Shown here: one piece after another, positions 1 to 3,907 of the stretch | How the letters are laid out: every line of letters starts with the position of its first letter | Position numbering within the stretch: the stretch's first letter is position 1 | NCBI RefSeq assembly: GCF_018860825.1 | Contig: NZ_JAHKPZ010000034.1 | Coordinates: 248,001-312,000 of the forward strand | Length of the DNA: 64,000 bases | Reading direction: 5' to 3' | Origin: Lacinutrix sp. C3R15 | Lineage (GTDB): Bacteria; Bacteroidota; Bacteroidia; Flavobacteriales; Flavobacteriaceae | Position numbers and translations under genes: made by a program | The notes under the pieces: generated by a model | Told to the model about the DNA's origin: nothing | Seen by the model: only the letters and a program-made list of their open reading frames with translations | The model's database searches: none

Positions 1-391
1 TTAAACTTGCAGATTGAATTTTTCTTGGCCAAGCGTTATTTAATACCCAGGTTATTACTGGAACATGATTTTCATTAAGCAGTTTAATAGTTACCGTTCT
101 TCTATACATAGAACCGGTTTCATTTCCTTCTTGAAAAAAATAGGTTTTTTTCCATTCTTTAAAAAAGTCAAAATCGCCTAAATAGGTTCCTCTTTTTAAG
201 GTTACATCACTATACTTTGTAAGTCCTGGTTGTTTTGTTTTATAATAACTTTTACTGTTTCCAGAACGATATTCAATAACTTCTGTTTCAAAATCTAATC
301 CACTAACTTCAGAAAATTCTATTCTAAAACTATCTCCCCATTCTACAGAGAAATGGAATTTTACTAAAGGGTAATCTGCAACTGTAGCCAT
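1..391 (-). CDS. Contractile injection system / phage tail tube protein, partial (runs off left edge)
   Basis: An open frame starts at ATG 391-389 and runs through base 1 without a stop, giving 130 codons. The protein begins MATVADYPLVKFHF and contains EVSGLDFETEVIEYR (about residues 28-42), LKRGTYLGDFDFF near 75 and NNAWPRKIQS near 119. This is the layout of the T4 gp19-like tube family (PF06841) found as inner tube in R-type pyocins, Afp/PVC-like extracellular injection systems and phage tails. Family members are about 145 residues, so only the last few codons are missing. Because dsbD lies upstream behind a terminator, this looks like the first gene of a leftward operon; sheath genes would be expected next. 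Family assignment is strong. Whether it is an injection system or a prophage cannot be decided from this window. Confidence 0.88.
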   Translation of the reverse strand, partial: MATVADYPLVKFHFSVEWGDSFRIEFSEVSGLDFETEVIEYRSGNSKSYYKTKQPGLTKYSDVTLKRGTYLGDFDFFKEWKKTYFFQEGNETGSMYRRTVTIKLLNENHVPVITWVLNNAWPRKIQSASL

Positions 392-454
392 AACTTTATA
401 TTTAAAATCAACAAACCAAAAAAAAAGCATAAAAACCTAAAAACCAGTTTTTTA

Positions 455-488
455 CAAACATAAATATACGTATTTTACTGAAATTCAA
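455..488 (-). promoter_or_regulatory. Putative promoter of the tube gene
   Basis: Read on the minus strand, TATGTTTG (462-455) matches the Bacteroidota -7 element TAnnTTTG, and a TTG at 488-486 sits 23 bases upstream as a -33 element. It lies between the dsbD terminator and the tube start, leaving a leader of about 60 bases. Spacing is at the long end of the usual range. Confidence 0.45.
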
Positions 489-544
489 CACTATGCTTTT
501 TTATTGATCTTATAATAATTTTTAAAAACTATTAAATATGGTTC

Positions 545-580
545 AAAAAAAAACCTTCCAGAAACGGAAGGTTTTAAAAT
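545..580 (-). terminator. Intrinsic terminator after dsbD
   Basis: A 9-bp perfect stem (551-559 with 566-574, core AAACCTTCC) with a 6-base loop is followed on the minus strand by a run of T. It lies 40 bases past the dsbD stop and separates dsbD from the tube gene. Confidence 0.85.
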
Positions 581-620
581 ATATTTTAATTATTAAGGTT
601 TTTACCTTTTTAGAAATTGG

Positions 621-2588
621 TTATTTCTTAAAATTTGCTACTCCTTTTATTAACCAATCATAATACTCTTCGGCATTTGGCGTATATGCTGTGGTATGAT
701 TTAAAAGTTCCATATCATGGTTTAATAACACATAAAAAGGTTGCGAGTTGTTCTGGAAGTTTAGCGTTTGTAAGGTTGCCCATTTATCGCCAATGGTTTT
801 AATATTTTTAATGCTTCCGTTGTGTTTTAAGAATTGAAATTGCTCCTCTTTTTCAAGTTCTTTTCTATCATCTACATATAAAGAAATGATTACATATTCA
901 TCATTTAACACATTATAAATCTTGTCTTTACTCCAAACCTGTTCTTCCATTTTTCGGCAGTTTACGCACGCCCAACCCGTAAAATCTAACATGATTGGTT
1001 TGTTTTGTTCTTTTGCTGCTGCAACGCCTTCTTCTAAATCTTTATAGCAATTTAAACCTAAAGGACAGTCGGATTCTTTTTCATATAAACTATAAGGTAA
1101 TGGTGGCGGAAAACCACTTAACATTTTTAAGTTTGCGTGTTCTGTATTGGTTAAACCAGGAATTAAATACACTACAAATGCACCTACTAATACTGCAAAA
1201 GAGATTCTACCAAAGCTTAATTTTTTTAGCGGACTATCATGCGGAAATTTAATTTTTCCTAAAAGATATAGTAATAAACCAATACCTAAAACAATCCAGA
1301 TAGCAATAAATACTTCACGTTTTAAAAGTCCCCAATGTTTTACTAAATCTGCATTAGACAAGAATTTAAAAGCCATTCCTAATTCTAAAAATCCTAGAAC
1401 TACTTTTACTGTATTTAACCAACCTCCAGATTTTGGTAAGGCGTTTAACCATTTTGGAAACATAGCAAATAAGGTAAATGGTAAGGCTAAAGCTAAACCA
1501 AAACCAGACATTCCCATAGTAAGTTGCATGGCTCCACCATCACTAGTTAGTGATCCTGCTAGTAAAGAACCTAAAATTGGTCCTGTACAAGAAAACGAAA
1601 CAATAGCAAGAGTTAATGCCATAAAGAAAATACCAATAATACCTCCTACGTTAGATGCCGAATCCATTTTATTTCCCCAAGAAGCTGGCAAAGTAATTTC
1701 GTAATAGCCAAAGAAGGAAAATGCAAAAAAAGCAAGTATGATAAAAAAGATAATATTTAGCCACACATTGGTTGAAATAGTATTTAATATCTCTGGATTT
1801 AACGAATCTAAGAAGTGAAAAGGTAAACTTAAAAGCACATAAATAACTAGTATAAATAATCCGTAAAGCATGGCATTTGCTAATCCTTTTTGTGAGTTGC
1901 TAGCACTTTTTGTAAAAAAGGAAACCGTTAACGGAATCATAGGAAATACACATGGTGTTAATAAGGCTATTAAACCACCAAGAAAACCAAGAATAAAAAT
2001 ACCTAGATTGGTTTTTTCTTTAACTTCTTCTTTTTCGTATTTCTCCCAACCGGTTATGTTAAGTTGCAGTTTATTAGAGAGCTCTTTACTCTTAGCATCA
2101 ACAGTTGCAGAAGCTGCTGTGTTTGTAGCACCAGAATTGCTTAAGTTAAAGTTTAGCACTTCACTTTCAAAAATACATTTTTCATCATCACAAGCTTGAA
2201 AATACACTTCACTAGTAATGATACTAACGTCTGAGTTTAGTAATTCTACTTTTTGCGTAAAGGTTGCTGTACCATCAAAATAGGTTAAATCCATTTGAAA
2301 CACCTTATCAAACTTAGTGATACTCTGGCTTTCTAAAACCTCACCAATACGCTTAAAGTCTTTTGTTTGTGCTATAGAATCAAATTCAAACTCGGTTGGT
2401 AAAGCTCCTCCTTCAGGAAGGTGTTGCGAGTATAAATGCCAATGGTCTTGAATTTGTGCTTGGTAAATCAAGTTATATTCTGTTTCTGAAAGTTTTTCAA
2501 CTTCTGTGGACCATTTTACGGGTTGCAATTGCGAAAAGGAAGTACTAATGGAAAAAAGAGTAATAACTACTAATAAGAACTGTTTCAT
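621..2588 (-). CDS. dsbD: Thiol:disulfide interchange protein DsbD family
   Basis: DsbD moves electrons from cytoplasmic thioredoxin across the inner membrane to periplasmic thiol proteins. Residues 1-19 are a signal peptide. Residues 20-150 form a DsbD-N/DsbC-like periplasmic domain with a cysteine pair at about 133 and 138. From about 195 a CcdA-type multi-span membrane core begins, with TPCVFPMIPLTVSFF near 211 and SCTGPILGSL near 335. A C-terminal thioredoxin-like domain carries CVNC near 541. At 655 residues it has all three domains of the family. Its ATG overlaps the tilS stop by one base (TAATG), so the two are probably translationally coupled. It ends in a clear terminator. Confidence 0.93.
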   Translation of the reverse strand: MKQFLLVVITLFSISTSFSQLQPVKWSTEVEKLSETEYNLIYQAQIQDHWHLYSQHLPEGGALPTEFEFDSIAQTKDFKRIGEVLESQSITKFDKVFQMDLTYFDGTATFTQKVELLNSDVSIITSEVYFQACDDEKCIFESEVLNFNLSNSGATNTAASATVDAKSKELSNKLQLNITGWEKYEKEEVKEKTNLGIFILGFLGGLIALLTPCVFPMIPLTVSFFTKSASNSQKGLANAMLYGLFILVIYVLLSLPFHFLDSLNPEILNTISTNVWLNIIFFIILAFFAFSFFGYYEITLPASWGNKMDSASNVGGIIGIFFMALTLAIVSFSCTGPILGSLLAGSLTSDGGAMQLTMGMSGFGLALALPFTLFAMFPKWLNALPKSGGWLNTVKVVLGFLELGMAFKFLSNADLVKHWGLLKREVFIAIWIVLGIGLLLYLLGKIKFPHDSPLKKLSFGRISFAVLVGAFVVYLIPGLTNTEHANLKMLSGFPPPLPYSLYEKESDCPLGLNCYKDLEEGVAAAKEQNKPIMLDFTGWACVNCRKMEEQVWSKDKIYNVLNDEYVIISLYVDDRKELEKEEQFQFLKHNGSIKNIKTIGDKWATLQTLNFQNNSQPFYVLLNHDMELLNHTTAYTPNAEEYYDWLIKGVANFKK

Positions 2589-3907
2589 TATTGTAATGTA
2601 ATTTTTAATATGTTTTTTGTTTTTTCTGTGACTTTATAACGATTGTCACCACGTTTATTAATAACCCAAATAACATCTTCACCTGAGTACAGAATTAAGG
2701 CTTTTTCTTTTTCTAACAAGGAGTATTTTTCGTCTTTAAAAAACTTACTTAACTTCTTTTTACCATGCATGCCTAAAGGGTAAAAGTAGTCGCCTTTTTG
2801 CCATTTTCTTACCGTTAACGGAAACTTTAACAAATCTTTATCTAAATATAATGTAGATGTGTTAGACTCTTGAATTTTTTGTGTGGTTTCAAAAGATAAT
2901 ACTCCAAAAGGTATTTCTATACTTTTTACATCTTCTGCTATAGAAATAGATACATCACTAGTACTATTATTAGCATCACTAACTCCTGTTACCAACAAAT
3001 AATCTCTGTCTTTTACTAATCTATGCGTCGCTGAGAAAACCTGTTTTCCAGATTGTGCTTCTAATAGATTGTAAACATCTTTCCATGCTGTAAAATTAAA
3101 ATCTTTCAGCAATTCAAAAACATAGGCATTGGTATTAGGTAACTCTTGTAGCTTTTTAGTATGTAATTTAATTACAGCATCTTCTATAGAAACTACATCC
3201 TTATATATTCTTTTTACAGCATCTTTAATAATACTTTTAGAGTATTTTAAATTGCTTTGTGTGGTTTCAAAATTATGAAGCAATTCGGTATTCATTTCCT
3301 TTAACACAGGAATAACGTCATGACGCAATTTATTTCTTAAATATTTGGTAGATGCATTACTACTATCTTCACGCCATTTAAAATTATTGACTTTTGCAAA
3401 ACTTACAATTTCTTCTCTTGAAAATTTTAACAAAGGTCTTATAATGTTGTCGTTTACTTCTGGTATGCCTGTAAGTCCATCTAAACCTGTTCCACGCGTA
3501 AGATTTATTAAAAACGTTTCTAGATTATCATCTGCATGATGTGCTGTTAAAACATAATCAAATTGCTGTTGCGTGCATAACACATCAAACCAACTATACC
3601 TTAAATCTCTTGCAGCCATTTGCGTAGAAATCTTTAGTTTTTCTGCAACTGCATTGGTATCAAAACTTTTGGTATAGATTTCTACACGTAAGTCTTTTGC
3701 CAGTTGTACAACAAAATCTTGGTCTGCATCGCTTTCTTTTCCGCGTAAATTAAAATTACAATGAGCAAGTGCTAAATGAAGTTTTGCTTGGCTGCACAAA
3801 TGCGCCAAGATAACAGAATCAATTCCGCCAGAAATGGTAACAAGAAGTTTTCCTTTGTTTAAAAAAGGGAGATTTTGGTTTATATGTTTTTGAAATTTTT
3901 TAAGCAT
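2588..3907 (-). CDS. tilS: tRNA(Ile)-lysidine synthetase TilS
   Basis: TilS uses ATP and lysine to convert the wobble cytidine of the AUA-reading tRNA-Ile to lysidine, an essential step. The PP-loop motif SGGIDS is near residue 26, followed by AHCNFNLRG and LTAHHADDNLETFL, the usual N-type ATP-pyrophosphatase landmarks. The C-terminal part has the TilS_C pattern, with VRKWQKGDYFYPLGM and KKLSKFFKDEK. The length of 439 residues is normal. It is followed directly by dsbD through a one-base stop/start overlap; that pairing has no obvious functional logic. Confidence 0.95.
   Translation of the reverse strand: MLKKFQKHINQNLPFLNKGKLLVTISGGIDSVILAHLCSQAKLHLALAHCNFNLRGKESDADQDFVVQLAKDLRVEIYTKSFDTNAVAEKLKISTQMAARDLRYSWFDVLCTQQQFDYVLTAHHADDNLETFLINLTRGTGLDGLTGIPEVNDNIIRPLLKFSREEIVSFAKVNNFKWREDSSNASTKYLRNKLRHDVIPVLKEMNTELLHNFETTQSNLKYSKSIIKDAVKRIYKDVVSIEDAVIKLHTKKLQELPNTNAYVFELLKDFNFTAWKDVYNLLEAQSGKQVFSATHRLVKDRDYLLVTGVSDANNSTSDVSISIAEDVKSIEIPFGVLSFETTQKIQESNTSTLYLDKDLLKFPLTVRKWQKGDYFYPLGMHGKKKLSKFFKDEKYSLLEKEKALILYSGEDVIWVINKRGDNRYKVTEKTKNILKITLQ

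Follow-up and report, generated by a model that had tools for sequence, protein, structure and literature searches.

A sheathless three-gene cluster of Lacinutrix, probably derived from an eCIS, encodes a tail tube, an adaptor and a fusion of a hub barrel to an AAA+ core

In AlgoCIS, an eCIS of the Bacteroidota, Alg5 and Alg7 attach the tube to the spike, and Alg7 contacts the wedges through its LysM domain (PMC8894135, available text). Solved Cis7 baseplates are six-fold according to their structure titles, and the loader Pvc15 is reported to contain two AAA domains, of which D2 is active, and is predicted to be a hexamer (PMC11495950, available text). Removal of single spike, wedge, tube or sheath-initiator genes prevents PVC particles from forming (available text of PMC12210884, which cites earlier work); the gene set described here would therefore not be expected to build an ordinary injector. 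One eCIS survey required at least ten core genes together, as its accessible sections have it (PMC8213781), and another, in its available sections, excluded clusters without baseplate, tube or sheath-initiator genes (PMC12210884); under such criteria a three-gene cluster, like the one described here, is invisible to both.

The stretch of DNA that we analysed, referred to as the window, comprises 64,000 nucleotides (C23:248001-312000) of the 3.61 Mb genome of Lacinutrix sp. C3R15 (G000; 42 contigs), and L003 denotes a stretch that reaches left of it. An earlier note on the window had recognized a tail-tube protein in the open minus-strand frame at 1-391 and had suggested a PF06841 profile check; when run, the search matched the frame far beyond chance (E=2.4e-39; 134.7 bits, with a cut-off of 28.2). 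The complete gene occupies L003:17924-18391, its 3'-terminal 77 bases, including the stop codon, lying outside the window. The mechanical ORF starts at 430, and we take the ATG at window position 391 as the start because the tube relatives of two other genomes begin there. The best solved relatives of the tube protein are 7b5h_AN of the Anabaena CIS (1.6e-49), 7adz_1a of AlgoCIS (4.1e-47) and, in third place, 9r9h_B (3.1e-35). The note had also placed this gene at the head of a leftward cluster, and indeed an adaptor gene and a hub/AAA+ fusion gene follow it on the same strand:

L003:16174-17415, minus strand: fusion of a Cis7-type barrel to an AAA+ core, 413 aa (PF19266 and PF00004), outside the window
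L003:17464-17919, minus strand: Cis5-like tube adaptor, 151 aa (PF06841, E=6.8e-34), outside the window
Window 1..391, minus strand: Cis1-like inner tube gene, 155 aa (PF06841), which opens the cluster
Window 451..488, minus strand: candidate cluster promoter, TTG ... TATGTTTG, within a conserved upstream block
Window 550..575, minus strand: intrinsic terminator of dsbD, with a stem of 11 pairs ahead of a T run, separating dsbD from the tube gene

The three genes, encoding the 155-aa tube, the 151-aa Cis5-type adaptor and the 413-aa fusion, lie between dsbD and adenine deaminase. They are separated by 4 and 48 bases, and their close spacing on a shared strand suggests that they likely form one operon. 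The solved chains closest to the adaptor are 7aeb_Y of AlgoCIS (E=4.6e-29) and 7b5h_AM of the Anabaena system; 7aeb_Y is its best PDB match, but the depositors name that molecule otherwise, and the score of the adaptor against the NCBIfam CIS5 equivalog (57.4 bits) is far under the cut-off of 260. The fusion contains PF19266 (CIS_tube) at residues 6-160 (E=9.5e-30) and PF00004 (AAA) at residues 212-334 (E=1.4e-22), and corresponds to a Cis7 hub barrel without LysM joined to the AAA+ core of a Cis15 loader without its N-domain. Two PF06841 matches and one PF19266 match were found genome-wide, all three in the cluster. Adenine deaminase begins 153 bases beyond the fusion and is followed by an alpha/beta hydrolase and ComM/YifB, to the left of which are two ORFs without a Pfam family and then a histidine kinase. 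In Lacinutrix sp. WUR7 (G001), two large FG-GAP proteins with a type IX secretion tail domain are encoded upstream of the tube cluster (L044:12916-19952).

The terminator that the note had expected to part the tube gene from dsbD is present on the minus strand at window 575-550, and a similar sequence occurs upstream of the tube gene in an Oceanihabitans MAG (G004). The note had also given the tube gene a candidate promoter of its own. A promoter-like element at window 488-451, TTG followed by TATGTTTG and judged by the Bacteroidota consensus, lies in a block that is conserved in all three genomes compared (G000, G001 and G004), the gene upstream being a different one in G001. With 23 occurrences of the pattern TTG-N17-25-TANNTTTG over the two strands of the 64-kb window, the match by itself is weak. 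A sigma-70 scan of window positions 1-3000 found no site on the tube strand between dsbD and the tube gene, and its 7 sites in total were fewer than in shuffled sequence (mean 12.3); the promoter therefore stays a candidate only.

The note went on to place an injection system directly outside the window, and this part fails: the left flank has no sheath gene within about 10 kb, which the note itself had named as a refutation, and the only sheath match of the genome is on another contig. A search leftward for sheath, baseplate and spike genes found none at the site, where an AAA+ domain is present but fused to the hub barrel; PAAR, gp25, Baseplate_J and tape-measure genes are likewise missing from the cluster site. 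Profile searches of the whole genome, which is rated 99.98% complete, gave no match for the spike (PF04717, the profile that also covers the VgrG-type spike of the type VI secretion system), gp25 (Cis9, PF04965), Baseplate_J (Cis11, PF04865) or the tape measure CIS_TMP (PF19268), an absence that falls short of proof because diverged, fast-changing spike and wedge genes may escape profiles. All four genes were found in the positive control, a family member with an eCIS cluster (G033), and the spike is also present in five of the six other genus genomes. An eCIS to the left of the window is rejected by the flanking genes, and also by the sheath, spike, gp25, Baseplate_J and tape-measure searches of the whole genome. 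Signs of a phage origin did not turn up in what was scanned: of the ten ORFs to the left of the window, three are the tube, adaptor and fusion genes and the remaining seven carry no phage domain. When viral contigs were scanned by peptide pattern, the fusion had no relative among them and the tube only four distant ones, 34-45% identical over parts.

Full-length fusions occur in 3 of 60 related genomes, namely the window's genome, G001 and G004 (64 and 65% identity); the protein matches something in 58 of the 60, where partial coverage points mostly to other AAA proteins. Among 120 listed of 7998 protein relatives there are 8 fusions, each 413 aa in length and aligning without a gap, and 112 AAA-only proteins; the four named fusions are from Lacinutrix or Oceanihabitans. 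Two metagenome fusions are on contigs of 3362 and 3127 bases, the same sizes as contigs of close adaptor relatives, so the cluster probably stays together in those metagenomes.

All eight listed fusions retain Walker A, Walker B and the aromatic residue of the pore loop, whereas the sensor-1 Asn is kept in one, the first arginine finger in three and the second in three, and no fusion has all three residues. By comparison, 111 of the 112 listed AAA-only relatives have the sensor-1 Asn and both arginine fingers, although an alignment-free motif matched only 95 of the 112. Because the Walker motifs and pore loop are retained while sensor-1 and the arginine fingers, and with them most of the residues for inter-subunit hydrolysis, are eroded, we read the AAA+ ring as one that would bind ATP with weak or absent hydrolysis, holding rather than pumping. 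Any one fusion member may still hydrolyse ATP, since P0014 and P0015 retain both arginine fingers and P0013 the sensor-1 Asn (P0003 has only the first Arg), and the loss of catalytic residues may represent one event, as the eight fusions are close relatives. Two whole-protein models of the fusion have low pTM values, 0.62 and 0.39, and each renders at most one half well. Specifically, the model built from an alignment of all 120 listed proteins has a poor barrel, probably since AAA+ N-domains were aligned onto it, and the model built from the 8 fusions and 60 of 120 listed CIS_tube relatives has a better barrel and a poorer AAA+ part. The identity of the barrel is backed by PF19266 and the modelled fold; the SalCis Cis7 chain 9rce_H is a profile match, and its absence from the best 50 listed in the fold comparison to the PDB, where AAA+ chains fill most rows, does not count against it.

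The cluster is missing from four of the seven genus genomes and is hence dispensable. In G002, G003 and G006, dsbD lies directly beside adenine deaminase with nothing between them; in G005, a 1170-aa ORF is found there (L074:4686-8198). No eCIS lies between dsbD and adeC in any of the seven. Near the tube-cluster site, between the hydrolase and ComM, G002 (L070-L071) and G003 (L072-L073) carry another contractile cluster, which has a spike and a gp25 of its own. A second intact system at the cluster site in relatives was considered and rejected, as the second G002 and G003 spikes, 15-18 kb from adenine deaminase, belong to another cluster. Trees in which not every gene was included for every genome place G001 and G004 in one clade (support 98) and G000 outside a clade of G001, G004, G003 and G005 (support 100 in the nucleotide tree and 91 in the protein tree); they disagree on G000 itself, which branches before G002 in the nucleotide tree (84) and with G002 in the protein tree (54). 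Together with the scattered presence of the cluster, this topology suggests that it is likely old in the genus and was lost several times, unless it moved between species.

All three cluster genes are under purifying selection, with dN/dS values of 0.10-0.27. By NG86, with three genome pairs for each gene and fusion part, the values are 0.10-0.17 for the tube, 0.18-0.19 for the adaptor and 0.20-0.21 for the whole fusion, whose barrel and AAA+ part taken singly gave 0.19-0.27 and 0.16-0.22, and the bootstrap upper 95% limits range from 0.22 to 0.42. These values are rough where dS is near or above 1, as in some pairs; the G001-G004 pair is unsaturated and agrees. Three housekeeping neighbours have lower values (0.03-0.12, one pair). 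Genes of a separate sheath locus gave 0.20-0.39 for the sheath, similar to the cluster, 0.25-0.33 for the spike, and 0.09-0.88 for the tube, where three pairs have few changes; for the cap, the shortened gene of the window's genome gave 0.42-0.52 against two relatives, compared with 0.38 between those two.

This sheath locus lies on another contig. The sole sheath profile match of the window's genome, at C1:309366-309662, scores 30.7 bits, just below the cut-off of 31.4, and is backed as a sheath by PF17482 (E=7.9e-12) and by 9r9h_T (E=2.2e-100); the sheath protein used as a query finds only this site in the genome. The gene is intact and encodes 525 aa, with a dN/dS of 0.20-0.24 when compared with five relatives. 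It lies behind a 135-aa gene, with YqeY and a tRNA-Arg to one side and a gene for an M90 peptidase to the other. The 135-aa gene corresponds to the two ends of a gene that encodes 269-272 aa in relatives, about half of it, the middle, being missing, and the G002 copy resembles the cap 9r9n_C (E=6.8e-6). The locus in the window's genome (L005:3004-5016) has thus been cut down to the sheath and a shortened cap, its tube, spike, PAAR and tape-measure genes gone. Six of the seven genus genomes have the sheath, and in relatives the locus pairs cap and sheath with a tube, an adaptor, a spike, PAAR and a piece of a tape measure. The sheath-bearing loci are listed here; two of the stretches end at contig ends:

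L051:5751-11263, sheath-bearing locus
L050:4717-10230, sheath-bearing locus
L052:3956-9551, sheath-bearing locus
L047:2460-13407, sheath-bearing locus
L049:7702-18319, sheath-bearing locus

The sheath-bearing locus appears to be wedge-less in five of the seven genus genomes, with no linked gp25 and no Baseplate_J match genome-wide, and in five of the seven its tape measure is a C-terminal part only (about profile positions 291-463 of 463). A tRNA-Arg(tcg) (L005:2522-2596) flanks the locus in four of six stretches scanned (G000, G001, G002 and G005) and is a possible integration site for it. Between PAAR and the tape measure, the sheath locus of G002 (and of G003) has 546-, 268-, 316- and 176-aa genes around an AAA+ gene (L047:3026-8327). 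None of the four has a convincing Pfam family or an NCBIfam match, and a credible solved relative is lacking for those of 546, 268 and 316 aa (best E of 0.017, 0.37 and none, respectively).

The two parts of the fusion align with unfused proteins: residues 6-158 align to 4-159 of the Cis7 of G033, and residues 161-412 to 191-443 of the unfused AAA+ protein of G002. G033 likewise has its Cis7 gene and then its AAA+ gene, but 11 larger plus-strand ORFs separate the two, spike, PAAR, gp25, Baseplate_J and tape measure among them. If some 20 kb of this layout were lost (20,467 bases if cut at the assumed residues), the same joint would result, and an old eCIS likely lost about that much internally, an origin that is modelled on the distant eCIS of G033 rather than on an intact ancestor at the same site. 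The cluster tube is 54% identical to the eCIS tube of G033 but only 43% to that of the G002 sheath locus, which makes the cluster an unlikely duplicate of its own genus's sheath locus. The G033 eCIS cluster also encodes a 921-aa protein with eCIS_core, OmpA and M35-type peptidase domains (L054:2180-4945), perhaps a cargo.

Our preferred reading, to which we give about an even chance, is that the three-gene cluster is an eCIS remnant left by an internal deletion and that the proteins it encodes would build a short tube upon a hexameric hub/AAA+ ring. As in AlgoCIS, the ring of Cis7 barrels would seat the Cis5 adaptor, with the Cis1 tube following next. The AAA+ domain would take the place of the lost LysM arm, which contacts the wedges in AlgoCIS, wedges seemingly being absent here. 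The stacking of ring on ring is geometrically plausible, given six-fold Cis7 baseplates and a predicted Pvc15 hexamer. Placed at the mouth of the tube, the AAA+ ring would more likely hold a client or stabilise the ring than pump, and the product would be a short, probably intracellular tube and not a puncturing syringe. Related bacteria likely kept the remnant for another, putative use. More tentatively, and on balance somewhat doubtfully, the cluster could represent a class of tube-only nanomachines in the Flavobacteriaceae, in which a tail tube that has no spike, wedge, tape measure or sheath of its own arises from a hexameric hub joined to an ATP-locked AAA+ ring and serves as an intracellular tube-shaped dock or channel for a client protein.

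Other explanations account for some of these observations. One that we consider unlikely, though it deserves serious weight, holds that a contractile system has been split in two, the cluster being its second half and working with the sheath locus elsewhere in the genome. It would explain why the sheath locus of G001 has no Cis7 or AAA+ ORF, which the cluster would supply, and it is favoured by the lack of any other close match to the fusion protein in G001 and G004, by the sheath carried in six of the seven genus genomes, and by the state of the window's genome, whose sheath is intact though the tube, spike and tape measure are lost there and whose only two PF06841 genes are in the cluster. 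However, the two loci are 3.1 Mb apart in the single-contig G001 (0.9 Mb the other way if circular), a second tube pair is present at the sheath locus in G001 and G004, and G005 has a sheath locus without either the cluster or a close AAA+ relative. The greater identity of the cluster tube to the G033 eCIS tube (54%) than to the G002 sheath-locus tube (43%) and the absence of a spike match in the window's genome also argue against it, and the dN/dS of the shortened cap (0.42-0.52) hints at weaker constraint on the sheath locus. It is improbable, too, that the cluster is a functionless, decaying remnant before its final loss: the equal length and gap-free alignment of all eight listed fusions, the dN/dS of 0.10-0.27, low for the barrel and AAA+ parts separately as well, and the conserved upstream block speak against decay, even if internal losses have affected both loci (the LysM and AAA N-domain in the cluster, about half of the cap, from its middle, at the sheath locus of the window's genome), four of the seven genus genomes lack the cluster and the catalytic AAA+ residues are eroded.

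The resemblance of the AAA+ part, and of that part only, to the defence ATPase IetA (PADLOC profile, E=4.4e-33; NCBIfam IteA, E=1.1e-26) raises the idea of an anti-phage defence module whose tube proteins sense or block phage tails. We regard this as very improbable, as the IetA score of 93.9 bits compares with a curated cut-off of 510 for assignment to IetAS, the tube and adaptor have no PADLOC match, and all 112 listed unfused relatives are AAA proteins of about 250-465 aa of the eCIS-type family, with far better scores. The reading of the earlier note, in which the tube gene marks the edge of a complete eCIS or prophage, is favoured by the tube gene itself and is scarcely credible in view of the neighbouring genes, the genome-wide searches, and the direct adjacency of dsbD and adenine deaminase, with no gene between, in G002, G003 and G006.

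Read as an eCIS-derived tube on a hub/AAA+ ring, the cluster gives an idea of how much a contractile injection system can lose and yet be kept by selection. The fusion unites the tube base and the loading ATPase in one chain; no description of a contact between these two components in an ordinary eCIS was found in the accessible portions of the literature searched. If this reading is true, a three-gene tube without wedges makes the parts needed for tube initiation directly testable. The constituent domains are already known; the literature searched, as far as its available text extends, describes neither the joining of barrel and AAA+ nor a three-gene cluster without a sheath nor the erosion of the ATPase site. 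That search, whose scope left most subscription papers and all preprints outside, found no paper linking Lacinutrix to a contractile injection system and none on a SalCis-type system.

Compared with known systems, the cluster is most like the Bacteroidota eCIS, as represented by AlgoCIS and G033, in having a tube, a Cis5 adaptor and a Cis7 barrel in the order of G033, together with a Cis15-type AAA+, a likeness supported by sequence and by the modelled fold. It differs from an eCIS in that its Cis7 is without the LysM arm and is fused to an AAA+ core, and in that its site is without sheath, spike, PAAR, wedge and tape measure. Like Cis15/Pvc15 loaders, the fusion retains the Walker motifs and pore loop, and its nearest unfused relatives among those listed are ATPases of mostly about 440 aa, one of which is encoded in the G033 eCIS cluster; unlike these loaders, it is without the N-domain, is joined to a hub barrel and has eroded sensor-1 and arginine-finger residues. 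It shares the barrel domain, by PF19266 and modelled fold, with the Cis7 hubs (Alg7, Pvc7, Afp7 and All3321), whereas the G033 protein and Alg7 (PMC8894135, available text) bear a C-terminal LysM arm where the fusion has its AAA+ part. The SalCis-type structures (PDB 9r9h, 9r9n and 9rce; the name is taken from the PDB molecule field) include the closest solved sheath to the lone sheath of the genome and a relative of the G002 cap; this likeness concerns the separate sheath locus, and the cluster tube matches 9r9h_B only third best. We class the cluster as derived from an eCIS and not as an eCIS itself.
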